DNA of 24,694 bases from a virus, in the IMG/VR virus record IMGVR_UViG_3300011114_001018, positions 1 to 24,694 of that record; one strand, 5' to 3'. The notes under the pieces were generated by a model, which saw nothing but the letters and a program-made list of their open reading frames with translations, was not told the DNA's origin and ran no database searches. Within the stretch, counting starts at the first letter, position 1, and each line of letters starts with the position of its first letter. Positions 1 to 24,694 of this stretch are shown here, piece after piece. A program made the position numbers and the translations under genes.

Positions 1-162
1 AAGTCGGCAGAGATCGCCAACAAGGCAGTCGACGGAGCGGGCTGCCCGTACCCCGGCGGATTGCAGAACTTCATCCAGGGCATTTCGACGAATCACATCG
101 GCGACTTGTACCTTCTCAAGCAGCGGTTCGGCACTAACGCCACCGCTTCAGTCTCCCCGTAG
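1..162 (+). CDS. C-terminal fragment of an unidentified, probably virion, protein
   Basis: The window opens inside a reading frame that is open from base 1 to the TAG at 160-162, giving the last 53 residues of a protein whose start lies upstream. The fragment is soluble-looking, with a Cys-Pro-Tyr-Pro-Gly-Gly turn near residue 15 and a Gly/Asn-rich stretch, and it ends in a short Ser/Thr/Pro tail. I recognise no domain. It lies 21 bases before the next gene, in the same direction and within the late/virion block, so a structural or tail-associated role is the natural inference from context only. Confidence 0.6.
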   Translation, partial: KSAEIANKAVDGAGCPYPGGLQNFIQGISTNHIGDLYLLKQRFGTNATASVSP

Positions 163-183
163 TCGTAGTAGAAAGGAGTCACC

Positions 184-600
184 ATGGCCGCAGTAGGTAA
201 ATACATTCACGCCTCGACCCACACGGGTCTCGCTATCAACATGACCAACGGCTACGTCGTTGGCCAGCGCCATCAGCTTCCGCTGTACGCGGACAGCCCG
301 GGTACGATTGGCAACAAGGGCGTTGGCCGGTTGTCCGCGTTGTACATCCACGTGAACACCATCGCGGGGGCGACGACCATCACTGCGCGGCTCAGCCTCG
401 ACACCGCCGGAGACCAGCCTTGGATCGGTGACTCGACCGCGACCATCAGCACGGGCATCACCACTGCAGCGCAGGGCGCGGTCACGTTCAAGATCGACGT
501 TGACTTCGTCCGATCCACGAACGACAACTTGTACCTCCACTTCAAGACGAACGCGGGAACCTGCATCGTGGACGCCGTCACCCTGACCTGGGAGGAGTAG
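184..600 (+). CDS. Hypothetical beta-rich virion protein, 138 aa
   Basis: The ATG at 184 is preceded by a strong ribosome binding site (AAAGGAG at 171-177), which decides the start. The protein is almost entirely predicted beta strand: alternating Thr/Val/Ile segments, for example around residues 55-75 and 85-110, with few charged residues, no signal peptide and no membrane segment. This composition is typical of small phage decoration, fibre-base or tail-associated proteins, but I do not recognise a named family. The next gene starts 3 bases after its stop, so the two are co-transcribed and probably co-translated. Function is unassigned; a virion role is inferred from neighbours and composition. 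Confidence 0.75.
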   Translation: MAAVGKYIHASTHTGLAINMTNGYVVGQRHQLPLYADSPGTIGNKGVGRLSALYIHVNTIAGATTITARLSLDTAGDQPWIGDSTATISTGITTAAQGAVTFKIDVDFVRSTNDNLYLHFKTNAGTCIVDAVTLTWEE

Positions 601-603
601 CTC

Positions 604-1527
604 ATGCCTCAAACCTCCAACAACACGGATGTCTTTGCACAGACCGTAGCAGGCGGCAGTTCTTCCTCGACCCTGTTCGCCGGGTTCTTCGGCGATGGGT
701 CAGACGGCGACGTCGTCATCACGACCCCGGTCACGCTGGCGCGGGATTGGTATTACAACAACCTGACCATTGATACCGGCGGTACGCTGAAGCCGCGTGG
801 TCAGCACATCTTCGTGAAGAACACCCTCACCGTTGGTGTCGGGTTGTCTATCAACGACGACGGCGTAGCGGGCGGCACGGGTGTCAGCGGGGGCACGGCC
901 CTGACCAGCATCTCTAACGGCTTCGGTGCAGGCTCCGGCGCGGGTGGGGCAGGACGGACAACGACGGGCGTCGGTAACGCAGGTGCCACGTCGTCCAACT
1001 GTTCGACCAACTTACTGGGACAGGCTCCTCAGGGCGGGACAGGCGGCGGGGTCAGTGCCCCTGTTGTAGCAGGTGGCGCGGGTGGTGCTGCTCCTTCCCC
1101 TACCATCCCACAGCGGTGGCCTTCCCTCGCGTCCATGCTCTCGGCGCGGCTCTACAACGGTACAGCTACATGGAACGGCGGGTCGGGTGGCGGCGGCGGC
1201 GGATGTGATTTGACAGGTGGAACCGGCACTTCTGGAAACGGCGGATCTGGCGGCGGCATCGTGTGGATCGCAGCGAAGACCATCGTCAACAACGGCGTGA
1301 TCTCCGCCAACGGTGGGGCGGGAGGTAACGGTGTAGCTACCGGTACGGCCTCGGCGGGCGGTGGCGCAGGGGGAGGCGGCGGACTGGTCGGCATCGTGAC
1401 CATGACGACTGGCTCGTACGGCACAATCACCGCAAGCGCCGGCCTCAATGGTACCGGAGCAGGAGTCGCCCCGACTGCTGCCGTCTCCGGCAAAGATGGA
1501 ACCGTTCACTACCTGGTGCTCGCATGA
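604..1527 (+). CDS. Glycine-rich tail fibre / adhesin-like protein, 307 aa
   Basis: Residues 1-80 form a beta-rich head (TTPVTLARDWYYNNLTIDTG around 40-59). Residues 85-290 are dominated by glycine tracts (GAGSGAGGAG, a seven-residue region of mostly Gly at 194-200, AGGGAGGGGG at 251-260) alternating with short strands such as IVWIAAKTIVNNGVISANGG at 219-238. Phage adhesins and fibre tips of this composition are known to pack parallel polyglycine-type helices, and the repeating strand/Gly pattern fits that kind of fold. It probably forms or caps a receptor-binding fibre exposed on the virion. It lies between another small virion protein and the lysis genes. Its TGA overlaps the next ATG (ATGA at 1524-1527). 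The receptor-binding role is inferred from composition, not from a recognised family signature. Confidence 0.72.
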   Translation: MPQTSNNTDVFAQTVAGGSSSSTLFAGFFGDGSDGDVVITTPVTLARDWYYNNLTIDTGGTLKPRGQHIFVKNTLTVGVGLSINDDGVAGGTGVSGGTALTSISNGFGAGSGAGGAGRTTTGVGNAGATSSNCSTNLLGQAPQGGTGGGVSAPVVAGGAGGAAPSPTIPQRWPSLASMLSARLYNGTATWNGGSGGGGGGCDLTGGTGTSGNGGSGGGIVWIAAKTIVNNGVISANGGAGGNGVATGTASAGGGAGGGGGLVGIVTMTTGSYGTITASAGLNGTGAGVAPTAAVSGKDGTVHYLVLA

Positions 1528-1715
1528 CCGTCGTACAGAAATGGCTGGTGTTCGCCAAGGACACGAACGAAAGCACGAAGAAGTGGCACCTGTCCCGCAA
1601 CCTGGACGTGTGCGGCTACTTCAACGGCGTCCCTCCGCGCCTGCAGGGGCAGGCCGAAGAGGAGAAGTGGAAGCTGCCGTACTTGTACAGCGAGACCGTG
1701 GAGTTGCCCGAATGA
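1524..1715 (+). CDS. Small hypothetical protein, 63 aa
   Basis: It begins with an ATGA overlap with the fibre gene and ends with an overlap with the next ATG (1712), so it is locked into a translationally coupled string. The protein is short and hydrophilic with a high Trp/Tyr/Lys content (WLVFAK near the start, WHLSRN in the middle, Glu/Lys-rich C-terminus). I see no membrane segment or known motif. Genes in this position, just after a fibre, can be chaperones or fibre-associated factors, but nothing in the sequence shows that. The tight coupling on both sides is the main reason for believing it is real. Confidence 0.65.
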   Translation: MTVVQKWLVFAKDTNESTKKWHLSRNLDVCGYFNGVPPRLQGQAEEEKWKLPYLYSETVELPE

Positions 1716-1906
1716 AAATCGTGGACATGGCTCCGGCCTTCGACATCCTCGGCAATGCTGGGCGCAAGCCCGAACCCAAGGTCTCCCTGCCTGCACCCAA
1801 GGTCTTCGACCTGATGCCCGGCAAGCTGGCCAAGGTGGAAGCCAACACCGACCGTGAACAGGTAGCACAGCTCGCGCTGTTCCCGAGTCTCACATGGAAG
1901 GGTTGA
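1712..1906 (+). CDS. Small hypothetical protein, 64 aa
   Basis: The chosen start is the ATG at 1712, which overlaps the TGA of the upstream gene. A longer in-frame reading back to 1448 would run through the fibre gene and is not credible. The product is short, with Pro/Lys spacing in the middle (KPEPKVSLPAPKVFDLMPGK, residues 19-38) and no membrane segment. The 3-prime end overlaps the holin-like gene by 13 bases. I recognise no family. Position suggests a virion-assembly accessory or lysis-cassette companion, which remains a guess. Confidence 0.6.
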   Translation: MKIVDMAPAFDILGNAGRKPEPKVSLPAPKVFDLMPGKLAKVEANTDREQVAQLALFPSLTWKG

Positions 1907-2169
1907 TCGCTGCAGTGACCGGGCCCCTCGGGGCACTGGCGCTGAGCGTGGCGATCCTCGTGTACTTGGCCAAGGCAATCGTGCCCATGCTCAAAGCGTA
2001 CTTCGATGCGCAGACGGCACAGCTTGCCAGCCTGGTGTCCGCACTCGAGAAGACCGTAGCAGCCCACGAGGCTGACCGGTCTGCATTCGAGCGCAGCATA
2101 GAGCGGCTGGGGAGCCGGCTTGAGAAGGTCGAGACAGAGATCACAACCATCGTCGCGAAGCTCGCCTGA
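1894..2169 (+). CDS. Holin-like membrane protein, 91 aa
   Basis: One clear hydrophobic segment spans about residues 5-30 (LGALALSVAILVYLAKAIV in its core). A charged, heptad-like amphipathic helix follows, roughly residues 40-88, rich in Glu, Lys and Leu. A short membrane anchor followed by a cytoplasmic coiled coil, encoded directly before an endolysin, is a common layout for small phage holins or holin-associated proteins. Its TGA overlaps the endolysin ATG (TGATG at 2167-2171), so the pair is translationally coupled. It is expected to sit in the inner membrane and let the endolysin reach the peptidoglycan. A spanin or antiholin is possible, since there is only one clear membrane segment and no obvious separate holin. 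Upstream Shine-Dalgarno pairing is weak. Confidence 0.68.
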   Translation: MEGLIAAVTGPLGALALSVAILVYLAKAIVPMLKAYFDAQTAQLASLVSALEKTVAAHEADRSAFERSIERLGSRLEKVETEITTIVAKLA

Positions 2170-2570
2170 TGCCGAAGTTCAGCGCGCTCAGCCTCAGCAG
2201 ACTCAACACCTGCAGCCCTGTGCTGCAGAGGTTGATGAAGGCAACCATCGAGATCGGCCCGGACTTCACAGTCCTCTGTGGGTTCCGGGGCAGGGCCGAG
2301 CAGGAGGCTGCTCTGGCGGCTGGCCATAGCAAGCTGGGCTGGCCGAAGTCGAGGCACAACATCAGCCCTTCGCACGCTGTCGACATCGCCCCGTACCCTG
2401 TTGACTGGCATGATGAGGCCCGCTTCCACGAGCTTGCTGACTCGGTGAAGCGGGCTTGGGGTGCCATGTCAGATGGAGCGAGGTGCGGCTACAGTCTTAC
2501 ATGGGGCGGGGACTGGACTACGTTTCGGGACTTGCCGCACTGGGAGCTGGGATTCGCCCGAAAGACATGA
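2169..2570 (+). CDS. Endolysin: M15-family L-alanyl-D-glutamate-type peptidase, 133 aa
   Basis: The protein carries the M15 zinc peptidase signature: a Gly-Phe-Arg region with a following Gln (CGFRGRAEQEAALAAGHSK, residues 37-55), then SRHNISPSHAVDIAPYPVDW at 61-80 (predicted zinc ligands His63 and Asp72), and DLPHWEL at 121-127 (His124 as third ligand). Phage members of this family cleave peptide cross-bridges of peptidoglycan, usually the L-Ala-D-Glu bond, to release progeny. The length is typical of a single-domain phage enzyme, with no signal peptide and no cell-wall binding domain, consistent with holin-dependent release. It is coupled to the upstream holin-like gene. Its last 53 bases overlap the end of the converging leftward gene at 2518-2892. 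Confidence 0.93.
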   Translation: MPKFSALSLSRLNTCSPVLQRLMKATIEIGPDFTVLCGFRGRAEQEAALAAGHSKLGWPKSRHNISPSHAVDIAPYPVDWHDEARFHELADSVKRAWGAMSDGARCGYSLTWGGDWTTFRDLPHWELGFARKT

Positions 2571-2892
2571 AGATGGGGCCGCCCTTGACGTCGGCCATCG
2601 GGAAGACGTGGGCATTCAAGAGCTCGAGCGCGAGGTCGAGCGTGCAGTCGTGCTCGTGCATGCAGGCGAAGATGACAGCCCGCTCGCTGTAGATGTACTT
2701 GCCGGCGTTCGCATCGTAGCCAACGACGCAGGAGTCGTAGACATCGTAGGGCTGGAGGCGCAGGGGATTGTCATCGCTGATGTCGATCTCCTCGGAGCCG
2801 CGCATGGTGTGGTCGTAGATCTCGAGCAGCGCATCACATCGGCTGATGGCGCGGTCGAACAGTTCACGAATCTCGGTGGTGGTGTCAATCAT
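2518..2892 (-). CDS. Small acidic hypothetical protein, 124 aa, last gene of the leftward operon
   Basis: I take the start at 2892 because that ATG overlaps the TGA of the preceding gene (ATGA at 2889-2892). A longer in-frame start would run through that gene. The protein opens with an amphipathic helix (MIDTTTEIRELFDRAISRCD). An acidic stretch follows (EEIDISDDNP), then a compact region with YDVYDSCVVGYDA and CMHEHDCTLDLALELL. The Cys/His cluster CMHEHDC could bind metal, but the spacing matches no finger I know. The C-terminus is a Ser/Pro tail. It terminates 53 bases inside the 3-prime end of the endolysin gene on the other strand. Function is unknown. Confidence 0.68.
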   Translation of the reverse strand: MIDTTTEIRELFDRAISRCDALLEIYDHTMRGSEEIDISDDNPLRLQPYDVYDSCVVGYDANAGKYIYSERAVIFACMHEHDCTLDLALELLNAHVFPMADVKGGPIFMSFGRIPAPSAASPET

Positions 2893-3128
2893 GGTGAGGC
2901 CTCGGTGAGAAGGAGAGAGTTGATGGCGTCGACAGAACACTCGACCGTCCACCAGACATGCAGGCACGCAGTGCAGACACGCTGACGGGCGAACCAGTGC
3001 GGCGTGACGAAGCCGATGTTCTCGGCGATGTCGTCACGGATTTGAACAGGGATGTGGGTAGCAGCGACGGCCGGACCACGGCTGGCTTTGACGCCAGTGT
3101 TCGGGCTGCTGCACTGGACGCAGGTCAT
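2889..3128 (-). CDS. NrdR-like zinc-ribbon protein lacking the ATP-cone, 79 aa
   Basis: The start at 3128 is set by an ATGA overlap with the upstream gene. Two Cys pairs, C3-C6 (MTCVQC) and C52-C55 (RVCTACLHVWWTVE), frame a zinc ribbon. The pattern resembles the N-terminus of NrdR: a first Cys pair, then a T-x-V-x-x-S-R element (TGVKASRGPA), then an Arg-rich lead into the second Cys pair followed by an aromatic strand. NrdR represses ribonucleotide reductase genes through this DNA-binding ribbon plus an ATP-cone. Here the protein stops right after the ribbon, and the segment between the pairs is longer than usual. It may bind nucleic acid as a phage regulator or act on nucleotide-metabolism control, but the resemblance is only at motif level. 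Confidence 0.62.
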   Translation of the reverse strand: MTCVQCSSPNTGVKASRGPAVAATHIPVQIRDDIAENIGFVTPHWFARQRVCTACLHVWWTVECSVDAINSLLLTEASP

Positions 3129-3709
3129 CGTGCCTTCACGCCGTGATCCGCACGGCCGAGGTAGGCATCGTTGGCAACGCACACCCGGTACGCCTCCATG
3201 ACTCCGGGGATGCTGACTTTGCCCGGCAGGATGGCGATGGTCCCGTCGGTCTGCACCATGGTCGCGCGGACCAAGTTGATGCGGCCGTCCGCTTCCTCGA
3301 CATCGCCGACAAAGGTGTCGCCGCTGGTCAGGCTGATCATGATGCGTCCGCCGGCTGGGTTGTCGCGTGCGTGCTTAGCCTCACGTGCGCGCTGGTGGGA
3401 GGCACGCAGTCCCTCGAGGATGTGCGGCTGCACCTTGCCCCCCAGCGGCTCAGCGTGCTTGCCTACGTAGCCCGGGACGGGCAGCGCAATGCCCTGCTCC
3501 AAGTTGTAGGCGCACCACTGCTTCCATGCAGTGCGCGCGCAGTTCCGCTTGTGGGTCGGGTAGGTGTAGAGCAGCTCGGTCAACGACTCAACCGTCATCG
3601 GATCGCAGGCCCGAAGCAGTCTGCCGACCGCAGTCGAGTACGCCTTGGCGCTGACCAGGTTGATGCCGATGGTCTGCTGCAGCCAGGTGATGAAAGGTTC
3701 GAAGTCCAT
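3125..3709 (-). CDS. Integrase-like N-terminal (SAM-like) domain fused to a small beta-barrel-like domain, 194 aa
   Basis: I choose the ATG at 3709 (MDFEPFITWLQ) over one six codons upstream, because a promoter with its -10 box at 3716-3721 would start transcription at about 3709. Residues 1-75 form helices resembling the core-binding SAM-like domain of tyrosine recombinases (FITWLQQTIG, AKAYSTAVGRLLRACD, KRNCARTAWKQWCAYNLEQG). A basic linker follows, then a strand-rich region at about 125-180 (RIMISLTSGDTFVGDVEEAD, INLVRATMVQTDGTIAILPG) that looks like a small SH3/Sm-type barrel. There is no catalytic domain with the R-H-R-Y residues, so it cannot be a recombinase. A DNA-binding accessory or regulatory role is plausible. 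It overlaps the next gene by ATGA. Confidence 0.6.
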   Translation of the reverse strand: MDFEPFITWLQQTIGINLVSAKAYSTAVGRLLRACDPMTVESLTELLYTYPTHKRNCARTAWKQWCAYNLEQGIALPVPGYVGKHAEPLGGKVQPHILEGLRASHQRAREAKHARDNPAGGRIMISLTSGDTFVGDVEEADGRINLVRATMVQTDGTIAILPGKVSIPGVMEAYRVCVANDAYLGRADHGVKAR

Positions 3710-3744
3710 ACAGACAGGATAACACACTACCCACAGTGTGTGAA
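3710..3744 (-). promoter_or_regulatory. Leftward promoter with embedded inverted repeat (candidate operator), predicted leaderless
   Basis: On the minus strand: -35 TTCACA (3744-3739), a 17-base spacer, and -10 TATCCT (3721-3716), itself part of GTGTTATCCT (3725-3716), one of the recurring GTGNTAYNCT sites. The spacer carries a perfect inverted repeat, ACACACT-6-AGTGTGT (3722-3741), well placed for a repressor or activator. Seven bases past the -10 box is 3709, the A of the ATG, so the transcript would have no leader. No Shine-Dalgarno sequence lies in the six available bases. Confidence 0.6.
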
Positions 3745-3751
3745 GTAGAAC

Positions 3752-4261
3752 TTATCGAAACCTAACTGTCCTCTTCGGGACTACAGAAAACCCTTCGGGC
3801 AGAGTCTCTCCCTTACGGAGTGCCTCCTGTGCTGCGGCCTTGTCCGGAGTCACGGTCACCTTGCGCCAGGCCAGCGGCCAGTGGGCCACGTCCTCGGGAG
3901 AGACGAGCGACTCAGAGTCCTGAAGCCACGCCGTGTAGTTGGATCCCTTCACGCGCGGGATCTCTCCTACCCCTTCCAGCTCGAGCAGCATCATGGTCGC
4001 GTACTCCCGGCAGCGTTGACGCCCGGAGTCGAGCGCCTTGCGCCGGGCGTAGAGTCGCTCCTCTTCTTCCTTGAGGAGCTGAGCCTCGGCATCGAGGCGG
4101 CGGGCCGCGACCACGCACGCGCCCACCTTGTCAGACGATGCTGCGATCCAATCGGCCAACGCCTTCTCCGTCTCCTCGGTGAGGATCCCATCGTTCTCGT
4201 CGATGAGGTTCATGAGCTGCGCGGCTTCGGACATCAAGTCCCAGGTAGACAGTTTCGACAT
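3752..4261 (-). CDS. Gp157-family phage protein, 169 aa
   Basis: Length and layout match the siphovirus Gp157 family: an N-terminal helical region (LMSEAAQLMNLIDENDGILT), a long central coiled coil with Lys/Glu/Arg heptads (DAEAQLLKEEEERLYARRKA), then a C-terminal strand region around VKGSNYTAWLQDSESLVSPE and a basic end (VVPKRTVRF). Members usually lie among phage replication and recombination genes, often near single-strand annealing or helicase functions. The family was first described for its effect on phage sensitivity when expressed in the host, and its biochemical role is not established. The ATG at 4261 has a good ribosome binding site (AGGAG at 4272-4268) and its own promoter-like motif. 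It lies in the replication operon after the polymerase gene. Confidence 0.75.
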   Translation of the reverse strand: MSKLSTWDLMSEAAQLMNLIDENDGILTEETEKALADWIAASSDKVGACVVAARRLDAEAQLLKEEEERLYARRKALDSGRQRCREYATMMLLELEGVGEIPRVKGSNYTAWLQDSESLVSPEDVAHWPLAWRKVTVTPDKAAAQEALRKGETLPEGFSVVPKRTVRFR

Positions 4262-4267
4262 GCGGTT

Positions 4268-4288
4268 CTCCTATATGTAGTGTAGCAC
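4268..4288 (-). promoter_or_regulatory. Extended -10 type promoter motif and RBS of the Gp157-family gene
   Basis: GTGCTACACT (4288-4279, minus strand) matches the recurring GTGNTAYNCT motif and reads as an extended -10 (TGC + TACACT). There is no convincing -35 hexamer 16-18 bases upstream. The predicted transcript start near 4272 coincides with the Shine-Dalgarno AGGAG (4272-4268), so the leader would be about ten bases. Confidence 0.5.
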
Positions 4289-4339
4289 GGATCCCTGCGG
4301 TGCGCGACCCAAGGATGTTTTTGACACCCTCGTCAGTTT

Positions 4340-6529
4340 TTATTCCTGAGCTTTGCCCCACGTAATCCCCGATCCGGATGTGACTTCGAGGCTCGGCATC
4401 CCCATCGAGATGGCAGCAGCAGACGCAGCAACCTTGATGGCTGACATGAGTGCAGACTCCTGCCCCTCGAAGCAGGCCAGCAGTGCGCCGTCGTACATCG
4501 GCAAGACTACAACGTGCTGCACGCCACTGGTTGCCAGCCCTGCCAAGGTCAGCCGCAGCAGCGTCGCCTCGTGCCGCTGCAACACACGCGCAACCAGACT
4601 GTTCTTCTGATGCGCCGTATTGCACTTCGCCGTCAGGCCCTTGGACAGCTCAATCCACGGGTTGTGCTTCCGCCACGCTGCCACGATTGGAGCGGCCCAT
4701 GCTGCGTCCTTGTCCGCGTGCCGGGCCAGCGTGTCAGCCGTGCCCCCGTTCAGCAGCGCCAGAGCGCACAGCTTAGCGACGTCGCGGGACACGCCAATGC
4801 GGGCACCGATGCCTGAGTACAGGTCACCGCCACCGTCGGCGAACAGCCCAGCGAAGAACGTGTTGCGGGGCTGGGCATCAAGGACCATCCGCTCCGCGAT
4901 GCGGAAGTGCGCGTTCTTGAAGTCGAAGTTCACAAACGTGGTTGTCGGCGGAGCGCAGACAAACGGGCGCGCAAAGTTCGGAACGGACTGACCCCACGCG
5001 TAGACCCGACCCTTTGGCTCAGCACGACTGGCAAGCCAGGCAGCGGGGCCCGGAAGGCTGACCTGCTGCCACCCGTCGGCGAGAGGCTCGGCGGCAGACA
5101 ACAGTACAGACAGGTTAGCCAGACGGCGGGCATGCTCAGGGTGGGAGTCCCCGGGGCCGAGGCAGCGCTCAATGCCGGGGGCCAGCAGCACGGTGACTCC
5201 TGCCGAGTTTGGACCAGGTTTGACCTGCACATTTGGGCGGTTTTGCACCAAGTGTGCAGGAACGTCCTTATAGTACAGGCCCTTATATATAGGACGTTCC
5301 TGCACAGAAACCGAAACGGGCCGATAGGCCAGGTTAAACCTGGGCCCAACTCGGCATTCGGTGAACTGCCGAACCTTGCCGTTCTCGCGGACCCGCAACC
5401 GTTGTGTGCTCTCCCGGGTGTAGCCGAGACGTTTGAGCAGGGACTCGATGCGCCGTACTGTAGCCCGGGTAGGCGTTGCGGTACCGGTCATGAGCTTTGC
5501 CAGCACCCCACCCGAAGGGGCGGCCAGGTCCCGGGCCCGCCACCGCTTGTCCCTGAACGTGGACTCGGCGGTACCTTGGAGGGCCACGCTGTCCTGAGGC
5601 TTCAGCGTTACGACTCGAAGCGCAACCACGTCGGCGCGCAACCGGTCCGGCAACATCTGCAGCAGCACCTTGGTCTTGCTGTAGATGCTCACGCGGTCGT
5701 CCGCGTACTTGTCTGCCCCGACCTCGCGGTGCTGCTCTTCCCCTTCCAGGTGCAGCTCGCCCACCTGTGCTCCCCGGGCCCAGCCCGGATCACTGAGCGC
5801 ACGCAAGACGGACAGGGCGTAGTGCTTGATCTCGACTTCGACATCGTCATCGGACAGGCGCTGCCCTGCCCACTTCTCGAGCTGCCGGAACCGCTCCTGC
5901 CCTCGTGCCGTGTCTACTGCCAAGGCCATGGCATCGGTCCGGATGGCGTGTCGGCGTGAACGAATCGCAGATAGAACAGGCATGGCATCAACCTCCGTAA
6001 TCCCAGGAGCAAACCCATCGAGGTACCAGGACTTCTTGTTCGCGCCCCGGATGGAGTGCAGCCGGGTGTCGTCCTGCCCGAACGCATGTGCTGCATTCTT
6101 CCCGACCTCCGATGCGGTTCGGACTGCGTTCATCCGCACCGCCCGCAAGGGAGGCGAGAACCCGCCGGCTCCGAAGCCATCGTACGCAATGAACACCGGC
6201 GTGTCCTCGGGCAGCGTGTCGATGAACTTCATCCACGCACTGCGGTGCCGCCGGTTCGAGGCCTTGACGTCCAGCACGACAGCGTCGAACTTCAGGTTGG
6301 TCGTGTCGTCGTGCAGCGTGCCGATGTAGATGCTCGTGTCGGGAACTGCATGGCTTACGTGCGCCGCACGGACAGGCTCCGCTGCCTTCATGCGGAACGA
6401 CGCCATCCCAGAGGACACGTACAGGACGGTGTTGCCCATGTCGGCGAGATCGCCTGCGTACGCCAGTCCTGTCAGCTCATCGTTGAGCGGCAGAAGTTGC
6501 GAGCAACGCGCGGAAGAGGTAAAGTACAT
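4340..6529 (-). CDS. Divergent family A DNA polymerase-like protein with a large unassigned N-terminal half, 729 aa
   Basis: The C-terminal 200 residues carry degenerate family A polymerase motifs. Motif A is VNFDFKNAHFRIAE, with the metal-binding Asp at residue 536. Motif B is SRDVAKLCALALLNGG, with R582, K586, L590 and N594 matching the spacing RxxxKxxxFxxxYG of Pol I and T7 polymerase. Motif C is LPMYDGALL, with Asp680. Both catalytic aspartates are kept, but the O-helix Tyr is Asn, the Phe762-equivalent is Leu, and HDE is YDG. Residues 1-500 show no 3-5 exonuclease motif I can recognise. The stretch at about 280-310 (VSIYSKTKVLL, then VVALRVVTLK) faintly recalls filamentous-phage gpII-type initiators, which is weak. 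The ATG at 6529 lacks a Shine-Dalgarno sequence; the same frame is open back to the helicase stop. It is probably the phage replicative polymerase or a combined initiator-polymerase. Confidence 0.68.
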   Translation of the reverse strand: MYFTSSARCSQLLPLNDELTGLAYAGDLADMGNTVLYVSSGMASFRMKAAEPVRAAHVSHAVPDTSIYIGTLHDDTTNLKFDAVVLDVKASNRRHRSAWMKFIDTLPEDTPVFIAYDGFGAGGFSPPLRAVRMNAVRTASEVGKNAAHAFGQDDTRLHSIRGANKKSWYLDGFAPGITEVDAMPVLSAIRSRRHAIRTDAMALAVDTARGQERFRQLEKWAGQRLSDDDVEVEIKHYALSVLRALSDPGWARGAQVGELHLEGEEQHREVGADKYADDRVSIYSKTKVLLQMLPDRLRADVVALRVVTLKPQDSVALQGTAESTFRDKRWRARDLAAPSGGVLAKLMTGTATPTRATVRRIESLLKRLGYTRESTQRLRVRENGKVRQFTECRVGPRFNLAYRPVSVSVQERPIYKGLYYKDVPAHLVQNRPNVQVKPGPNSAGVTVLLAPGIERCLGPGDSHPEHARRLANLSVLLSAAEPLADGWQQVSLPGPAAWLASRAEPKGRVYAWGQSVPNFARPFVCAPPTTTFVNFDFKNAHFRIAERMVLDAQPRNTFFAGLFADGGGDLYSGIGARIGVSRDVAKLCALALLNGGTADTLARHADKDAAWAAPIVAAWRKHNPWIELSKGLTAKCNTAHQKNSLVARVLQRHEATLLRLTLAGLATSGVQHVVVLPMYDGALLACFEGQESALMSAIKVAASAAAISMGMPSLEVTSGSGITWGKAQE
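5214..5343. repeat. Candidate replication origin: 16-bp perfect inverted repeat flanked by two short palindromes
   Basis: The arms TGTGCAGGAACGTCCT (5253-5268) and AGGACGTTCCTGCACA (5291-5306) are perfect complements around a 22-base AT-leaning centre that contains TATATAT and further partial pairing. Flanking sites CCAGGTTTGACCTGC (5214-5228) and CCAGGTTAAACCTGG (5329-5343) are variants of one palindrome, CAGGTTNRACCTG. All of it lies in codons about 396-439 of the polymerase gene, in the linker before the polymerase domain. An origin inside the initiator gene is known in other phages such as phiX174 and P2. The origin role here is inference. Confidence 0.5.
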
Positions 6530-6568
6530 GTGCTGTCCGAGTGGTATTGGGTAGCAGTTCTGGTCTTT

Positions 6569-6595
6569 GGGGGTGGAGTTGGTAGCTCCACCCCC
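6569..6595. other. Strong hairpin between helicase and polymerase genes
   Basis: A perfect 10-bp stem, GGGGGTGGAG (6569-6578) and CTCCACCCCC (6586-6595), closes a 7-base loop. In the leftward mRNA it is preceded by AAA and followed by AAAG, so it lacks the U-tract of an intrinsic terminator in that direction. On the plus strand only TTT follows. It starts 6 bases after the helicase stop codon and ends about 40 bases before the polymerase ATG. It may stabilise or process the mRNA or modulate coupling of the two genes. Confidence 0.5.
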
Positions 6596-6601
6596 TTTCC
6601 A

Positions 6602-8263
6602 TTACGCGCCGGCGACTGGTCCGCCACCGAGCGCATCGGGGTATCCGCCCAGGTGGTCTGGGTAGATGATGAGGTTGTTCGCTGCGCGGGTCACTGCAAC
6701 ATACAGCAGCCGGCGTTCGGAAGTGCGAGCGTCTTCGTGCGGGGAGTTCCACTTCTTGCTCGTGATCAGCAGCACCGTGTCGAGGGTCAGGCCCTTCGAG
6801 GAGTGCGCAGTCCCGAGGTAGATGGGCGCTTCGTCCACGTAGAACTGAGAGTACCAAGTGGCGTACTCCCTGTGGCTGGCGAACGTTCGCGCCTTGTCCG
6901 CGATGGCCTGATAGGTATCTTCTGCCTTGGCCTTGACCTTGTGCAGCCGCGCCGCGATGGACTCCTCCCACGTCCGCCCCTCTACCTGCTTGAAGCTGGC
7001 GACCGCTTTCTCCGTGATGGCTCCCTGCTTGCAGGTGTACGGGATGCCAGCGCGGAAGGCCGCAGCCTCGAAGCGCCGGAGCTCGGACCACGTACGGGCA
7101 AGCACCGCGACCTGCTTGCCGGGCAGCGCAGCACGGGCCCGCTTGATCAGCTCCGCCAGTGGGCTCTCCTGCGCTGTGGCGTAGCGCCAACCCTGACCGG
7201 CTCCGTCGATGCGGAGCGACGTGGCTGCGGGCCGGCCCCATGCGTACTCATGCACTACGTGGTTGCCGAGGTCGACGATGCTGCGGACTGACCGGCGGTT
7301 CTCGTTCAGGTACACAGTCTTCGTGGTCGGTCTGTCGATGAACTCCTGAAACACATCCGGGTCTGCACCCTTCCATTCGTGGATGGTCTGGCGCAGATCG
7401 CCGACTGCAATCAAGCGGCCGCCCTTGGCGATGTGCATCGCAGCCCGAAGCAGCAGGGGATCCATGTCCTGGCATTCGTCAACGATGACTACGGGCACAC
7501 GCCGCGGGCCTCGGGCGTACCACTCGACCAGCGCGTCGGCGAAAGACCACAGCCCGCGCAGCCCTACTGCTGTGTTGTAGGCGGTCAGCCACGCCGCAAT
7601 CGTCACGTCGAGGTTCCGGCTTTGCAGCCAGGCCACCATCGCATCGGTGTCCCGAAGCGGGATCCCCTCTGCCGTCAGCCGCGCGATGGTTGTCGTCAGG
7701 TTCTGGACGACACGCTGGTGTGCTTCGTTGCCCACCCCGAACAGGGTGATCTCTTCTGCCCCCTCCTCTTCGATGCCCATGAAGTCGGGCGGGTTGGCGA
7801 CACGTCCGTTCAGGACCTCGACCCAGATGTCTGCCTTCTCTTTGTAGTTCAAGTCGACGCACGTCTGGACCATGCCCCGTCTAAGCGTGCCGTTGTGCGG
7901 CGAACCCTCTGTGATCTCCACCTCGTACTGCCGGTTCAATGCCCGGCACGCAGTAGAGTGGAACGTCTTGGCCGGCGCGTCCTTGTCCTGCGGATCAAAC
8001 TTCAGGCGTGCGTTCAGTTCGTCCACGGCCGGACGGCTGAAGCTCAGCAAGAGGATGCTCTTCTTGTCGACGCCCGCATCGTACATGGCGGTGACTGCGT
8101 GGATGACGGCGGTGGTCTTGCCCGACCCGGCCGCCGCTACGACGGCCAAGTCCGTCGTGCCGTGCACGATGGCGTCCGCTACTGCTTGCTGCTCGGGGGA
8201 CAGGACGGGCTCGGTTGAAACAGGCGCGGTGAATGTGAATGACCAGTCCTCGTTGCGGTTCAT
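6602..8263 (-). CDS. UvrD/Rep-like superfamily 1 DNA helicase, 553 aa
   Basis: The full SF1 helicase motif set is present: Q-motif region LSPEQQAVADA at 21-31, Walker A AAAGSGKTT at 43-51, motif Ia LLLSFSRPAVDELNARL at 71-87, AKTFHS at 98-103, Walker B VVIVDECQDMDPL near 255-267, motif III VGDLRQTIHEWKGAD near 285-299, motif IV-type NENRRSVRSI, motif V GTAHSSKGLTLD near 480-491, and motif VI LLYVAVTRAANNLI near 518-531. UvrD-family enzymes translocate 3-to-5 on single-stranded DNA using ATP. At 553 residues it is shorter than bacterial UvrD (about 720). It starts in an ATGA overlap with the upstream gene (8263-8260) and precedes the polymerase gene, so it is most likely the replication or recombination helicase of this phage. 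Confidence 0.93.
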   Translation of the reverse strand: MNRNEDWSFTFTAPVSTEPVLSPEQQAVADAIVHGTTDLAVVAAAGSGKTTAVIHAVTAMYDAGVDKKSILLLSFSRPAVDELNARLKFDPQDKDAPAKTFHSTACRALNRQYEVEITEGSPHNGTLRRGMVQTCVDLNYKEKADIWVEVLNGRVANPPDFMGIEEEGAEEITLFGVGNEAHQRVVQNLTTTIARLTAEGIPLRDTDAMVAWLQSRNLDVTIAAWLTAYNTAVGLRGLWSFADALVEWYARGPRRVPVVIVDECQDMDPLLLRAAMHIAKGGRLIAVGDLRQTIHEWKGADPDVFQEFIDRPTTKTVYLNENRRSVRSIVDLGNHVVHEYAWGRPAATSLRIDGAGQGWRYATAQESPLAELIKRARAALPGKQVAVLARTWSELRRFEAAAFRAGIPYTCKQGAITEKAVASFKQVEGRTWEESIAARLHKVKAKAEDTYQAIADKARTFASHREYATWYSQFYVDEAPIYLGTAHSSKGLTLDTVLLITSKKWNSPHEDARTSERRLLYVAVTRAANNLIIYPDHLGGYPDALGGGPVAGA

Positions 8264-8826
8264 TGCGTCACCATAGTCGGCCGCACGTAGGGCTGCACGT
8301 ACATGTGCAGCCCCAGCTCAGCGAACTTCTTCAGCATCCAACTGTATTGTTCAGCTGTCAGCCCGAGATTCTTGATGTACGCGGGGCGCAGGTCCTGCAG
8401 AGGGAACGCCTCGGCCAGCAGCGTCAGCTCCGGCCACACCGGAGCTGCCCATGCCCGCACCGCCTCGAGCCGCGCGGCCTCCGCCTGTCGCGCCTCCTCC
8501 TGCTCTGCCTGCTCGATGAGCTGCTGCTTCGCCTTTGCCTGCCGCTTGAGCTCGTCGCGCTTCAGCTTCTCCGCTTTCTTGAACTCTTCCTTTCCAACAA
8601 ACAGCAGGATGCAATCACTGCCGACCCACACCTTCTCCGGGTGGTCTGGGTGCTCGAGCTCGTACCTGTAAAAGAGTCGTGTGGTAGTGCACAAATCGCA
8701 TGCGGTGCGCCCGGTTGGCGGAGGGCCCTGGATTTGCACCCCGGTGCCGACGTACTTGGTGGGATCCACCCCGAGGGCGTGCACGTAGCCGAACCTCTTG
8801 GCCTTGATGATGTCTTCGCGTGTCAT
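8260..8826 (-). CDS. Phage protein with Cys motif and long coiled coil, 188 aa
   Basis: The start at 8826 is fixed by an ATGA overlap with the RHH gene. Residues 1-80 form a compact domain with CDLC (C43, C46) and VGSDC (C72). The pattern CxxC ... vGSxC recurs in small phage zinc-binding proteins of unknown function encoded in early operons. Residues 78-125 form a highly charged coiled coil (EEFKKAEKLKRDELKRQAKA and beyond). The C-terminal 60 residues are a helical region ending in YVQPYVRPTMVTQ. It lies between a regulator and the helicase, so a nucleic-acid or replication-complex role is plausible, but no catalytic signature is visible. A longer upstream reading in this frame runs through the RHH gene and is discounted. 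Confidence 0.68.
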   Translation of the reverse strand: MTREDIIKAKRFGYVHALGVDPTKYVGTGVQIQGPPPTGRTACDLCTTTRLFYRYELEHPDHPEKVWVGSDCILLFVGKEEFKKAEKLKRDELKRQAKAKQQLIEQAEQEEARQAEAARLEAVRAWAAPVWPELTLLAEAFPLQDLRPAYIKNLGLTAEQYSWMLKKFAELGLHMYVQPYVRPTMVTQ

Positions 8827-9008
8827 GTCGTCTCCCTGGTCGCGGAGACGAAGGCCTGCAGGTTGACGCCGTAGACAATGTCGAGCGCCTTCTCGAGGGC
8901 ATCGCTCAATGTGCGCGCCCCGAGCATGGTCTGCAGGATGCGGAGACGGGCGTGGGTTTTGCGGTTGATGAGAACGTTGACGACTTCTTCTGGTTGACGA
9001 CGGGCCAT
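8823..9008 (-). CDS. Ribbon-helix-helix-like small regulator, 61 aa
   Basis: I choose the ATG at 9008 because a consensus Shine-Dalgarno (GGAGG, 9018-9014) lies just upstream; the longer frame to 9056 would start upstream of the promoter. The fold pattern is ribbon-helix-helix: a short basic strand (EVVNVLINRKT), helix one (HARLRILQTMLGA), a turn, and helix two (TLSDALEKALDIVYG). Such proteins bind DNA as dimers with the strand in the major groove and often repress their own promoter. This is the first gene of the leftward operon, next to a divergent promoter pair with an inverted repeat over its own -10 box, so it is a good candidate for the early switch. Its TGA overlaps the next ATG. Confidence 0.7.
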   Translation of the reverse strand: MARRQPEEVVNVLINRKTHARLRILQTMLGARTLSDALEKALDIVYGVNLQAFVSATRETT

Positions 9009-9024
9009 TGGCACCTCCACCTGC

Positions 9025-9053
9025 ATCGTAGTACGAAAACAGAGAGCCGTCAA
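9025..9053 (-). promoter_or_regulatory. Leftward early promoter (sigma70-like) with operator-like inverted repeat
   Basis: On the minus strand: TTGACG (9053-9048), exactly 17 bases, then TACGAT (9030-9025). Transcription would begin near 9018, at the Shine-Dalgarno GGAGG of the RHH gene. A short inverted repeat, TCGTA-G-TACGA (9026-9036), overlaps the -10 box and could be an operator. This is the best sigma70 match in the window and lacks the GTGNTAYNCT motif seen elsewhere, consistent with early transcription by unmodified host polymerase. Confidence 0.68.
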
Positions 9054-9060
9054 CATTTAG

Positions 9061-9089
9061 TTGGCATGGTTCACAAATGGTGGTACTCT
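9061..9089 (+). promoter_or_regulatory. Rightward promoter with extended -10 and direct repeats in the spacer
   Basis: TTGGCA (9061-9066), 17 bases, then TACTCT (9084-9089), within GTGGTACTCT (9080-9089), a copy of the recurring GTGNTAYNCT motif. ATGGT occurs twice at 9066-9070 and 9077-9081, one helical turn apart, inside the spacer: possible half-sites for a small regulator. The predicted start near 9096 abuts the Shine-Dalgarno AGGAGA (9097-9102). The -35 box is only 7 bases from the -35 of the divergent leftward promoter. Confidence 0.62.
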
Positions 9090-9108
9090 GATGACAGGAG
9101 AGAATCTC

Positions 9109-9357
9109 ATGGACCGCACTCATACACTGACCCGCCTCATCAACGTCATCGAAACCTCAGCGAAGACCCTCCCCGGCCTGACCTACGAGCTGAACTTCTG
9201 CGGTGACTGCTCTGCCGAGTACGACCCTCGCGTCTGGTTCGACATCAGTTACGCATCCCATACGGCCCGCGCTGCGGTTGACCTCGACGATCACTACATC
9301 TACATTGAGTCTGCTGTGCGCAGCGCGATCCTCGAAGCCGTGATATACTACTCGTAG
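9109..9357 (+). CDS. Small hypothetical protein, 82 aa, first rightward gene
   Basis: The ATG at 9109 has AGGAGA seven bases upstream and lies about 13 bases after the predicted transcription start. Earlier in-frame candidates (TTG 9061, ATG 9091) overlap or precede the promoter elements and are rejected. The protein has an N-terminal helix (LTRLINVIETSAKTL), a central strand region with two Cys (NFCGDCSAEYDPRVWF), and a C-terminal acidic strand/helix unit (DDHYIYIESAVRSAILEAVI). CGDC could be a metal or redox pair, but no partner pair is visible. The last codons contain a promoter-like motif (9340-9349) for the next gene. Function is unknown. Confidence 0.65.
   Translation: MDRTHTLTRLINVIETSAKTLPGLTYELNFCGDCSAEYDPRVWFDISYASHTARAAVDLDDHYIYIESAVRSAILEAVIYYS
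9340..9349 (+). promoter_or_regulatory. Extended -10 type motif upstream of the packaging genes
   Basis: GTGATATACT reads as a strong extended -10 (TGA + TATACT) and matches the recurring motif. No -35 hexamer is evident. Transcription would begin near 9356, giving a leader of about 17 bases to the ATG at 9373, which contains a GGAGAG ribosome binding site. It would drive the terminase genes. Confidence 0.5.
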
Positions 9358-9372
9358 TTGGAGAGTGCCTGC

Positions 9373-9723
9373 ATGAATCCCAAGCCCCCGTCGCACGTCG
9401 TGTCGTTGTTCTCGGGGGCTCCCGTCAAGAACACTGGAGCTGATGCCATCCTCCAACATATGCAGGTTAAAGCTCAGCAAAAGGCGAATCGCTTCTCGAA
9501 AGTTTTCACCGCAATCGAGGCGCGCGACATCACGACTGTGAGCTGGGAACTGCTCACGGTCGCGATCACAGAGATCGACGAGAAGGGGACCACGGTCCTC
9601 GGGCGCACCACTCTCATGGAGTTGGTGCGCCAGCTCTCTTCCAAGAACAACAGCATGCTCGAGGCTGACAAGGACGCCGCGCTCAAGGACGTCTCGACCT
9701 GGTTGCGGAAGAAAGCTGAGTGA
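9373..9723 (+). CDS. Candidate terminase small subunit (by position), 116 aa
   Basis: The ATG at 9373 is preceded by GGAGAG at 9361-9366; a TTG at 9358 in the same frame is less likely. The protein has a flexible N-terminus (PKPPSHVVSLFSGAP), then mostly helix: a basic helix around residues 34-45 (VKAQQKANRFSKVF), helices through EARDITTVSWELLTVAITEI, and a charged C-terminal helix ending in WLRKKAE. Small size, helical content and a GTGA overlap with the large terminase gene fit a small terminase, which recognises packaging DNA as a ring oligomer. I see no clear helix-turn-helix, so the assignment rests mainly on location. Confidence 0.5.
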   Translation: MNPKPPSHVVSLFSGAPVKNTGADAILQHMQVKAQQKANRFSKVFTAIEARDITTVSWELLTVAITEIDEKGTTVLGRTTLMELVRQLSSKNNSMLEADKDAALKDVSTWLRKKAE

Positions 9724-11210
9724 GCCTCTCCCAGTCAGAGATCGCAGCGATCATGGCAGACCCGGTTGAGTTCATCAGCCGGCTGACCATCGTGTCCAAG
9801 ACTGGGAAGCTGATCCGCCTCCGCCCGAACGCGGTGCAGATCGAGACCATCGAAGCGCTGCGCTCAGGCAAAGACGTGGTCTGCCTAAAGGCCCGGCAGC
9901 TCGGCCTGTCAACCGCAGTAGCAGCATACTTCTTCTGGCTCTGGTACACGAGCCCCGACCCCGAACGGTACGCGGTCCTCTCGTACAAGCTGGCGTCAGC
10001 GAAGAACCTGTTCGGGATGTGGAAGGGGTTCTACTCCCGCATGCCGGGATGGATGCGCCGGTCTTTGTCTGTTGACAGTACGACCGAGATGGTACTGGCT
10101 GACACAGGCGCGATCCTCATGGCAGCCTCGGCGCAGGGCGACGGCGGTCTGCGTAGCTGGACCTGCTCTGCCATCTGGATCAGCGAGGCCGCGTTCAGCG
10201 AGGGCTACGACGAGCTCAAGTCCACCGCAGTGGCATCCCTCAATGGGGGCCAGCTGATCCTCGAGAGCACGGCCAACTACCACGGCGACCCGATGTACCT
10301 CGAGCGCCAGCTCATCGAGTCCGGCATGGTCGATGGCATCAACCTCTTCTTCCCGTGGTTCGCGCTGCCCGAGTACAGCACTACGCCGCCCGAAGGCTGG
10401 CAGGCTGACGGTAGCAGCCCGCACTCCCCGGCGCAGCAGTACTGGGCGGAGGTCAACCGCAACAAGCTGGGCCTCGTGCGCTTCCGCCGCGAGTATCCGG
10501 AGACACCCGACCAAGCCTACGCTGCCGTGGCCGGAGCCTGGCTCGAGGACGGACTTTTTCAAGACGTCGAGTCCATCCGCCTCGACGCATCAGGCGGCGC
10601 ACTCGCAGGTGTAGACCCTCGGGACAAGTACGCTATCGGGGTTGACGCCGGAGCAGGTACGGGCGGCGACTGGTCAACCATCGTCGTCGTGTCTGCCCTG
10701 ACCCGGCAGGTAGTCGACGTCCGACGCAGCAACACCATGTCCCCGACAGAGTGGGCCGAGGTAGTCGCCGACGCCAGCCGTAAGTGGAACAACGCCAAGG
10801 TGTGCGTCGAGTCCAACGGTGTCTGGGGCGGCGTCATCGTGACAGAGCTGCGGCACATGTCGATCCCCCAGTGGACCGACGAGAAGGGCAACTACTGGAC
10901 GACCAACGCAGAGTCGAAGCCCCGCATGCTCGAGGGTGTGCGCGATGCGCTGGCTCGAGGGCAGATCCAACAGCTCGACAGCTGGACCATCGGTGAGCTG
11001 CGCTCCTTCAAGATCGACGAGAAGGGCAGGCCGTACGCACCGACTGGCGGCCTGCACCACGGCGACACCGTCATCGGATTGGCCCTTGCCCTTCAGTGCT
11101 TACTCACGGTGCGCGTATCAGACAAGCCCTTCCTGCCCCAATGGATCACGGACCGCAAGGTTGCCGAGGCCAGAAAGCAGGGCGCCCGCCATGAACTTCG
11201 CCGTTACTGA
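9720..11210 (+). CDS. terL: Terminase large subunit, 496 aa
   Basis: The start is GTG at 9720, overlapping the upstream TGA. The ATPase domain has a phage-type Walker A, KARQLGLST (57-65), and a Walker B, AIWISEAA (151-158), with the catalytic Glu but Ser where an Asp often stands. The nuclease domain has an RNase H-like fold with Asp309 (AIGVDAGAGTGGDWST), Glu364 (VCVESNGVWGG) and Asp449 (GGLHHGDTVIGLALAL). The protein powers translocation of DNA into the prohead through the portal and cuts the concatemer. Length is typical. It lies directly before the portal gene, the usual packaging order. The packaging strategy (cos, pac or direct terminal repeats) cannot be read from the sequence alone. 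Confidence 0.95.
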   Translation: MSLSQSEIAAIMADPVEFISRLTIVSKTGKLIRLRPNAVQIETIEALRSGKDVVCLKARQLGLSTAVAAYFFWLWYTSPDPERYAVLSYKLASAKNLFGMWKGFYSRMPGWMRRSLSVDSTTEMVLADTGAILMAASAQGDGGLRSWTCSAIWISEAAFSEGYDELKSTAVASLNGGQLILESTANYHGDPMYLERQLIESGMVDGINLFFPWFALPEYSTTPPEGWQADGSSPHSPAQQYWAEVNRNKLGLVRFRREYPETPDQAYAAVAGAWLEDGLFQDVESIRLDASGGALAGVDPRDKYAIGVDAGAGTGGDWSTIVVVSALTRQVVDVRRSNTMSPTEWAEVVADASRKWNNAKVCVESNGVWGGVIVTELRHMSIPQWTDEKGNYWTTNAESKPRMLEGVRDALARGQIQQLDSWTIGELRSFKIDEKGRPYAPTGGLHHGDTVIGLALALQCLLTVRVSDKPFLPQWITDRKVAEARKQGARHELRRY

Positions 11211-11217
11211 CAACCTT

Positions 11218-11231
11218 GTGATACCCTGAGG
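11218..11231 (+). promoter_or_regulatory. Extended -10 type motif and RBS immediately before the portal gene
   Basis: GTGATACCCT (11218-11227) matches the recurring motif and reads as an extended -10 (TGA + TACCCT). Its last base is only 8 bases before the portal ATG (11236), so a transcript from here would have a leader of about two bases. A Shine-Dalgarno-like TGAGG (11227-11231) would then serve only read-through mRNA from the terminase genes. Confidence 0.45.
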
Positions 11232-11235
11232 CACC

Positions 11236-23403: not shown

Positions 23404-24694
23404 TGGCTACCGAACAAGTTGGAACCAGCGGGCGCGTCTTCCGCATCACGCGGAACTACACCAATGAACGCATCCTCAAAAACATGGAGGCGTACACCGA
23501 CGCATACCTGAAGCCTCTCGAAGAGCGCTGGCAGTACAACATGCGGCAGGCGGAACTCAACGCTGCGGGCCGCAAGGATGAGTACGAAGCGAAGATGAAG
23601 CTGTATCAGGAGGGCGAAAAGCAGAAATCCGCCCGAGAGCTTGCGCGCGACAAGTCAATCTACAGGTTGAAAGAGCAGGAGTATCAGGCGCAAGACAAAG
23701 CAAACCTCAAGCAGCCAACGGCAGAGCGCGACGCGGCCAAACAAAACTTGGACGAGGCAAAGGCCAAGACCGAGCAAGTCAATGTCCCGCAGGGTGCCCA
23801 GAGCCAATCCTCGGGACCGGCCGGCAGCGGCGGCGGCCCGGCAGTTTCCGCTGCGCGGAAGAAAGCACAGGAAGGAATCCAGGCAGCGAAGGGGCAGAAC
23901 GACCCTCTCATTGACCCGGTAGGTTTGGCCGGGAATGTGCGGACGCGTACGGGTGTAGGCAACATTGCCGCTACCGATCCCGACACTGCGGACTTCACCT
24001 ACCACAGCACCGTAGAGGAGAGCATCAGCGCAAAGGCCGGCGACCTCATGCGAACGGGAATGGATGGCGACGAAGCGCGCATGCAGGCCGAATCGGATGT
24101 GCTTGGCGCGCTTGAGGCAGGCGGCGCCAAAGACTTTGCCGAAGGGTGGAGACGGCAGTCTAACAAAACAGCAGCGGAAAATGGCGGCGGCGGGTTCCGC
24201 CAATCGTCGAGCGTCAACTTTGGCTCGGAGCAGCAGTACAAATACAAAGACCTGGCAAACATTTATGCTGACCTCACCCCGGAGGAGCAGCTGGCGATCA
24301 AAGCAAAGATGACCCCCGCTCAGCGCGATAATCTCATCAAGCAGCTGGAAGGAAAGACGTTTGATAACGGGCCGATGCCTGTGTACGAGCCGACGGACAT
24401 CCTCACGGAAGCACGCCGCCTGCAGGGTAAGTACTTCGGGAAGACTGTAGAGCACCCTGGCTTTGAAATGCGCAACCGCATGGACGAACTCCTGCGCATG
24501 ACCCCGGAGCAGCGGGCTGTTGAGGTTGCTAACTTTTATGCAAACCGGGGGGCTCCTGCTGTAGCCCCGCTGCCTGCCACCCCCGTTTCGAATCAGATCC
24601 CCTTGACCGAAGAGGACATGCAGGGGCTCAACGACAATGCTCCACCTCTCGTCATTCCGCAGGGGTCGAATCAGATCCCGCTGACTGAAGCCGA
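23403..24694 (+). CDS. N-terminal part of a large internal virion-like protein (runs off the window)
   Basis: The frame is open from the ATG at 23403 (TAATG overlap with the previous stop) to the end of the window: 430 codons with no stop, so the gene is 3-prime truncated by the window. Residues 20-130 form a long charged coiled coil (Glu/Lys/Arg/Gln-rich). A Gly/Ser linker follows near 140-150, and residues 230-370 are a mixed helical region with recurring acidic turns (LTPEEQLAIKAKMTPAQRDN; RMTPEQRAVEVANFY). The last visible part is a low-complexity linker with SNQIPLTE occurring twice, 26 residues apart. Long coiled-coil proteins after a gene like the preceding one are often ejection proteins, sometimes with a C-terminal enzyme domain; that part is not visible here. 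Confidence 0.72.
   Translation, partial: MATEQVGTSGRVFRITRNYTNERILKNMEAYTDAYLKPLEERWQYNMRQAELNAAGRKDEYEAKMKLYQEGEKQKSARELARDKSIYRLKEQEYQAQDKANLKQPTAERDAAKQNLDEAKAKTEQVNVPQGAQSQSSGPAGSGGGPAVSAARKKAQEGIQAAKGQNDPLIDPVGLAGNVRTRTGVGNIAATDPDTADFTYHSTVEESISAKAGDLMRTGMDGDEARMQAESDVLGALEAGGAKDFAEGWRRQSNKTAAENGGGGFRQSSSVNFGSEQQYKYKDLANIYADLTPEEQLAIKAKMTPAQRDNLIKQLEGKTFDNGPMPVYEPTDILTEARRLQGKYFGKTVEHPGFEMRNRMDELLRMTPEQRAVEVANFYANRGAPAVAPLPATPVSNQIPLTEEDMQGLNDNAPPLVIPQGSNQIPLTEA
24588..24690 (+). repeat. Two copies of a 25-base coding repeat (SNQIPLTE)
   Basis: The segments 24588-24612 and 24666-24690 differ at three positions and lie 78 bases (26 codons) apart in the same frame, each encoding SNQIPLTE followed by an acidic residue or Ala. 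They may be the first units of a longer repeat array continuing beyond the window. Confidence 0.6.

Follow-up and report, generated by a model that had tools for sequence, protein, structure and literature searches.

A candidate internal promoter with a fold-back spacer and a predicted leaderless start in front of three overlapping genes of an uncultured tailed phage

Introduction

How is a phage gene expressed when its ATG lies directly behind a promoter-like sequence and is preceded by no Shine-Dalgarno (SD) sequence? The locus that raises this question is found in the entire IMG/VR record IMGVR_UViG_3300011114_001018 (24,694 bases), hereafter the window, which represents a tailed phage and has matches to terminase, portal, capsid, and internal virion proteins. 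On the minus strand, a gene of the Sipho_Gp157 family of Pfam (3752..4261), whose transcripts can read into the next gene, is followed by three small genes: gene 1 (P0001, 194 aa, 3125..3709), gene 2 (79 aa, 2889..3128), and gene 3 (124 aa, 2518..2892). The start of gene 2 overlaps the stop of gene 1 (ATGA) and the start of gene 3 (2892) overlaps the stop of gene 2, so that the three genes overlap head to tail. A preliminary description of this DNA proposed that gene 1 has an internal, leaderless promoter with an operator-like repeat in its spacer.

The promoter and the start of gene 1

The stop of the Gp157-family gene (3752) and the start of gene 1 (3709) lie on the same strand and are separated by a gap of 42 nt, which reads GTTCTACTTCACACACTGTGGGTAGTGTGTTATCCTGTCTGT on the minus strand. 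This gap comprises, on the minus strand, a -35 box TTCACA (3744-3739), a 17-bp spacer CACTGTGGGTAGTGTGT (3738-3722), and a -10 box TATCCT (3721-3716) with an extended -10 TG (3724-3723). Apart from the TG, this arrangement had been described before, and every position checked holds. The six bases GTCTGT separate the -10 box from the ATG of gene 1 (3709-3707). With six bases between the -10 box and +1, the predicted +1 is the A of this ATG, exactly where the transcription start had been expected.

Promoter-like sites as such are not more frequent than expected: the first 12 kb contains 3, compared with a mean of 1.9 (sd 1.6) in shuffles, and the case therefore rests on the place of the promoter. 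When the 42-nt gap was dinucleotide-shuffled 20,000 times, any promoter matching at 9 of 12 positions was found in 0.665% of the shuffles, and one with a -10 box ending 5-8 nt before the ATG in 0.115%; the same placed promoter with the extended TG was found in none of the 20,000. In the whole window, only one of the 4 sites with at least 9/12 matches has an ORF starting exactly at the expected +1, and this is the gene 1 promoter.

The gene 1 start has no SD, as had been claimed: its pairing energy with the anti-SD is 0.1 kcal/mol, the weakest of 25 starts in a hand-made list, three of which were entered one or three bases off the start codon. The next weakest is that of the lysin gene (-0.2 kcal/mol), and the other weak starts, those of the lysin, the helicase, and gene 2, each overlap an upstream stop. 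For the polymerase-like gene the SD is also weak (-3.2, the median of the background being -3.0), but no upstream stop overlaps its start, and gene 1 is therefore not the sole start of this kind. The gap between the helicase and the polymerase-like gene (6529-6602) contains a 12-pair hairpin (6569-6595, one G-T pair), and the polymerase-like gene, too, starts without a clear SD. Judging from the geometry and the lacking SD, the gene 1 message likely starts leaderless.

A candidate extended -10 promoter of the Gp157 gene, TGCTACACT, is found at 4279..4287 on the minus strand, followed by six bases and AGGAG, and is also present in the distant relative G019. It belongs to a recurring motif, TG-N-TAYACT (TACCCT in L005), followed by six bases and then AG..GGAG or GGAG. 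By our choice by eye, this motif is found in the window at 4279-4287 (-) and 9341-9349 (+), in the G019 stretch L085 at 3192 (-) and 7356 (+), and at the gene before the terminase in L005, L008, L009, L024, L025, L035, and L036; the set was chosen from 56 pattern matches (2 in the window, compared with 0.44 in simple shuffles) and by direct reading. With +1 six bases after the -10 box, these candidates place +1, by eye, at or next to the SD. Under the same geometry, gene 1 would therefore be leaderless. If the motifs act as promoters, leaders that are very short and open with the SD would be common in the lineage, and gene 1 would have lost even the SD.

At 9008-9110, the window also exhibits a divergent control region, with a leftward TTGACG-17-TACGAT before a small gene (9008-8823) and a rightward TTGGCA-17-TACTCT before an ORF at 9109.

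Conservation in a distant relative

The only relative carrying the whole region is G019 (IMGVR_UViG_3300032227_001595), of which the 12.5-kb stretch L085 was used. The gene order is the same as in the window (Gp157, gene 1, gene 2, gene 3), with a short extra stretch separating genes 1 and 2. The two gene 1 proteins are 38% identical, and 65 of 145 four-fold degenerate coding sites agree (21/48 in gp157, 20/43 in gene 1, 10/23 in gene 2, and 14/31 in gene 3), an agreement that would be close to saturation for this G+C-rich pair.

The gap between the Gp157 gene and gene 1 is 86 nt long in G019. It contains a 13-base block, TTCTACTTCACAC, which includes the -35 box (3738..3750 on the minus strand of the window, 2640-2628 in L085) and is identical at 13/13 positions. 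TTCACA is followed at the same 17-bp spacing by TACTAT. The TA...T of the -10 box and TG.CTG.A.GG over the +1 region are common to both genomes, and both -10 boxes match the consensus at 4/6 positions; the G019 promoter has no extended TG. The 16 bases between the block and the -10 box show 1 match in an ungapped comparison. A shared 13-base word was found in 0 of 3,000 shuffled gap pairs, the longest shared word being 12 bases, once. In a raw scan of L085, which gives a count without a shuffle expectation, the gene 1 promoter is the one promoter with at least 9/12 matches. With one informative relative as evidence, the gene 1 promoter is probably a real control point. The proposal of an internal promoter is thus supported by an orthologous promoter in the same gap, and a promoter first read by eye in an uncultured phage gains this support despite coding divergence near saturation.

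Leaderlessness is not kept in G019, the one ortholog in which it could be read. The same predicted +1 lies 24 bases before the ATG, and AAGGAGG precedes the ATG within this predicted 24-nt leader. The promoter is therefore conserved, whereas leaderlessness appears to be particular to the window phage. The difference may reflect either a deletion joining +1 to the coding region in the window or the gain of a leader in G019. Taken together, the two phages suggest that a promoter can be conserved while its leader comes or goes.

Few other relatives inform on this region. Close-relative scans of IMG/VR with gene 1, the polymerase-like gene, Gp157, and the helicase returned no relative. The capsid gene has 157 IMG/VR relatives, of which 80 were kept; 40 of these records were searched whole and the other 40 by tblastn (E<=1e-3) on retrieved DNA. 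Among the 40 whole records, the Gp157 family is found in one and gene 1 in two, G019 and G013, the latter being cut off inside gene 1, before its start. At the 80 capsid-relative loci, tblastn (E<=1e-3) found no gene 1. G019 and G013 were also the only records that IMG/VR alignment scans retrieved with gene 1, with its C-terminus, and with gene 2, and two scans of species genomes retrieved none. Among annotated phages, the region had no match as DNA and gene 1 of the window none as protein; gene 2 of G019 had no match either, and gene 1 of G019 had one weak partial match (E 0.4). With at most one mismatch, the block TTCTACTTCACAC is found in 7 of the 40 records, exactly only in G019 and as TTCTACTTCGCAC in the other six; the TTCTACTTCGCAC copies in G014 and G015, 831 bases past the terminase match, probably lie in the portal gene. 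The ends of the window (1-700 and 24000-24694) match different relatives (L086 and L002), and the G013 record, with a similar order of genes, is cut elsewhere, a hint that the genomes are circularly permuted.

The inverted repeat

The spacer, extended into the -35 box, contains the inverted repeat ACACACT-GTGGGT-AGTGTGT (3722..3741, minus strand), a candidate operator or RNA hairpin. Its two perfect arms (3741-3735 and 3728-3722) were confirmed in the letters. Of 20,000 gap shuffles, 3.2% contained a perfect 7+7 repeat with a loop of 3-12 bases, and 0.46% contained one whose loop has 6 bases. Over its full length the window has 30 such repeats, compared with a mean of 22.65 (14-37) in 20 shuffles. 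The promoter is better than chance at its place, and the repeat alone only modestly so. With up to 3 mismatches, no further copy of the repeat was found in the window, an absence without significance since the loose-pattern shuffle mean is 0.71. An ACACTAC half-site common to the gene 1 and Gp157 promoters (two occurrences in the window and four in L085) was considered as an operator motif. It was dropped because it is part of the extended -10 in the Gp157 promoter and occurs in opposite orientations in the gene 1 promoter of the two genomes.

As RNA, the repeats of the window and of G019 both fold into an 8-bp stem with a 4-base loop (UGGG in the window), starting at the same first base, with energies of -8.5 and -8.6 kcal/mol, respectively. 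These hairpin energies are not exceptional (z -1.08 and -2.26, and -1.19 for a fold of 71 nt). When the 16 spacer bases were shuffled 5,000 times, an equal fold from the same base was obtained in 0.26% (window) and 0.38% (G019) of cases. Looser definitions gave higher frequencies. When the fold could begin at any base, an equally low energy was reached by 8.9% of the spacer shuffles for the window and by 3.1% for G019. When the 5' base was kept and the stem had to have 8 bp and no more than one bulge, the frequencies among 20,000 shuffles were 6.9% (window) and 1.5% (G019). The base of the stem, ACAC/GTGT, is identical in the two genomes and the upper arms differ; with two sequences only, changes in pairing are not properly countable, and a gapped by-eye alignment makes the 3' arms look alike.

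The symmetry of the repeat as DNA differs between the two genomes. That of the window repeat is reached by 4.75% of shuffles and that of the G019 repeat by 84%, because one base is bulged in the latter. The dyad that suggested an operator is perfect in the window, whereas the G019 repeat is not symmetric as DNA and hence is no standard symmetric operator.

The predicted proteins

The structural model of gene 1 has a mean pLDDT of 68.7, with blocks within residues 1-80 at 78-93 and a C-terminal domain at 51-70. The modelled N-terminus resembles the core-binding domain of tyrosine recombinases, with Z scores of 9.3 for 5hxy (XerA), 8.8 for 4a8e, 8.2 for 2a3v, and 7.8 for lambda Int (1z19), over 81-82 residues; according to the warning of the tool, Z scores of helical bundles below about 13 may reflect a common arrangement only. 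Pfam gave no recombinase match at E<=10 and lists no family for gene 1 at E<=1, and a PDB profile search returned no recombinase chain. The model shows no catalytic domain of tyrosine recombinases: residue 85 is followed by a helix and a small beta domain, modelled with moderate to low confidence. This C-terminus resembles Sm/LSm proteins in the model (Foldseek, 4emh, E 8.8e-4; Z 7.4 for 3by7 and 7.1 for 4emh); the best single-sequence match to Sm has an E of 0.23, and no Sm chain was returned by the PDB profile search. Gene 1 is predicted to join a recombinase core-binding-like and an Sm-like domain in one phage protein, and this predicted fusion is the least familiar part of the system.

Gene 2 is a candidate NrdR-like zinc ribbon. 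Its matches to Zn_ribbon_NrdR of Pfam (E 1.1e-4 in the window and 1.7e-5 in G019) are both below the curated cut-off, and the better of the two matched stretches covers 17-18 of 42 profile positions. Gene 2 is not an NrdR as a whole: in its 79 aa Pfam gave no ATP-cone match. The PDB profile search listed no NrdR. Gene 3 is conserved in G019 and G013, but has no family match in Pfam and its model is unusable (mean pLDDT 52). The preliminary description of three DNA-binding-like proteins was thus overstated, gene 1 being such by model only, gene 2 by a sub-threshold ribbon, and gene 3 by nothing usable.

It also mentioned a ribbon-helix-helix protein. None of the results identifies a member of the three as such, and the gene with this appearance, judged by eye, is the small gene at 8823-9008, outside the three. 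This gene has homologs in L008 and L036. Pfam gave no match for it at E<=5, and the stretches of G019 that were fetched, outside the first 12 kb of that record, contained no homolog. Because of its place and of the missing homolog in these stretches, we set it aside as regulator of the gene 1 promoter.

Proposed mechanism and alternative explanations

The explanation that we favour, with a probability of about 0.6, is that an internal promoter gives a leaderless gene 1 mRNA with genes 2 and 3 coupled to it, and that the fold-back is most likely a regulatory site, with negative autoregulation by gene 1 as the leading guess. The three distal genes would receive their own message from a host sigma-70-type promoter in the gap behind the Gp157-family gene, with transcription starting at the A of the gene 1 ATG or no more than two bases from it. 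Gene 1 would be read from this leaderless mRNA, and translation of genes 2 and 3 would be coupled to it through their overlapping starts. Transcripts reading through from the Gp157 promoter probably cover the three genes too. A product of these genes, most likely that of gene 1, may sit on the fold-back over the -35/-10 spacer and shut the promoter. We take gene 1 as the leading guess because its N-terminal model resembles a DNA-binding core-binding domain; control by the repeat is plausible, and the identity of the regulator is a guess. If gene 1 binds its own promoter, this would be a DNA-binding role for a recombinase-like domain without its catalytic domain.

The repeat could instead function at the RNA level, as a hairpin within transcripts that read through from the Gp157 promoter, where it would affect processing, stability, or gene 1 translation, with the Sm-like domain of gene 1 perhaps binding the adjoining single-stranded UUCUACUUC; the promoter may also be real in this case. 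The equal geometry and energy of the two folds although the upper arms differ, the G019 repeat failing the DNA-symmetry test, the Sm/LSm-like C-terminus modelled for gene 1, and a terminator scan of the minus strand (1-12000) that lists none all point in this direction. RNA alone, however, needs neither the -35 box within the conserved block nor the constant 17-bp spacing to the -10 box, the fold energies are unexceptional, and pairing changes between two sequences cannot be properly counted. We regard an RNA hairpin as unlikely, but as the main alternative for the repeat. An operator is placed somewhat ahead of an RNA hairpin because the fold-back is locked between the conserved -35 and -10 boxes. 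Both functions may be combined, gene 1 being a dual autoregulator that recognizes the 20-base fold-back as a promoter DNA dyad and, in read-through transcripts, as an RNA hairpin carrying a UUCUACUUC tail. This model-based idea is highly improbable; if true, it would represent a new type of phage autoregulator, with a core-binding DNA domain and an Sm-like RNA domain.

The remaining explanations change the regulator or dispense with the promoter. That gene 2, rather than gene 1, is the regulator, its NrdR-like zinc ribbon binding the ACAC...GTGT half-sites, is improbable. The Zn_ribbon_NrdR matches speak for it, as do NrdR boxes, which are paired 16-bp palindromes with one zinc ribbon binding each half (PMC12051234); against it, the matches are sub-cut-off and partial, the PDB profile search gave no NrdR, and a single repeat is present instead of a pair. 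It counts against the favoured explanation that reinitiation on read-through RNA could account for the translation of gene 1. In the strict form of this alternative, gene 1 expression would depend entirely on transcripts from the Gp157 promoter, ribosomes would reinitiate 42 nt downstream, and the promoter-like site would be inactive, which we consider quite improbable: the candidate Gp157 promoter is common to G019 and the same-strand gap has no terminator-like site, but the promoter geometry is kept at the orthologous 86-nt gap despite the diverged coding sequence, and gene 1 has no SD for reinitiation. Chance matches to a promoter and to a repeat in an AC/GT-rich gap would account for a -10 box of 4/6, for promoter-like sites no commoner than in shuffles, and for a repeat equalled in a few per cent of gap shuffles; conservation in G019 already disfavours this explanation, which is very remote.

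Comparison with known systems

A literature search found no mention of the window locus, which is not proof of absence. Leaderless mRNAs whose promoter contains or adjoins an operator are already known in phages and bacteria (PMC4488713, PMC3017554). A closely similar layout is described for acuR-acuI-dddL of Rhodobacter sphaeroides, also a three-gene unit with an SD-less first gene and an n6 repeat overlapping the promoter (PMC3017554). Its RACE-mapped mRNA starts at the AUG of the first gene, the promoter comprises -35 TTGATT and -10 TATTAT, and mutations identified the overlapping repeat TAATAGAC-n6-GTCTATTA as the operator for the product of the first gene (PMC3017554). The acuR unit is bacterial, however, with a TetR-family regulator relieved by acrylate and with SDs for acuI and dddL (PMC3017554), whereas the phage locus has other proteins, repeat arms of 7 instead of 8, and is known from sequence alone. 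Leaderlessness is reported to be kept among acuR-like genes (PMC3017554); it does not strictly define units of this type.

Among phages, the regulators cI and cro of PY54 are expressed from leaderless mRNAs that start at the AUG beside an operator (PMC4488713), and lambda cI is likewise a leaderless, operator-adjoining regulator (PMC4488713, PMC3017554). In these phages, the repressor genes of the lysis-lysogeny decision flank one intergenic region (PMC4488713), whereas the gene 1 promoter is internal to a block of genes in one direction and its product has no repressor-family match. In Deinococcus-Thermus, a -10 box a few bases before the ORF gives a leaderless message (PMC12340547), as would be the case for gene 1. 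There it is a general mode of the host phylum (PMC12340547), whereas here it would be one case in a genome in which the other promoter candidates viewed put an SD after +1.
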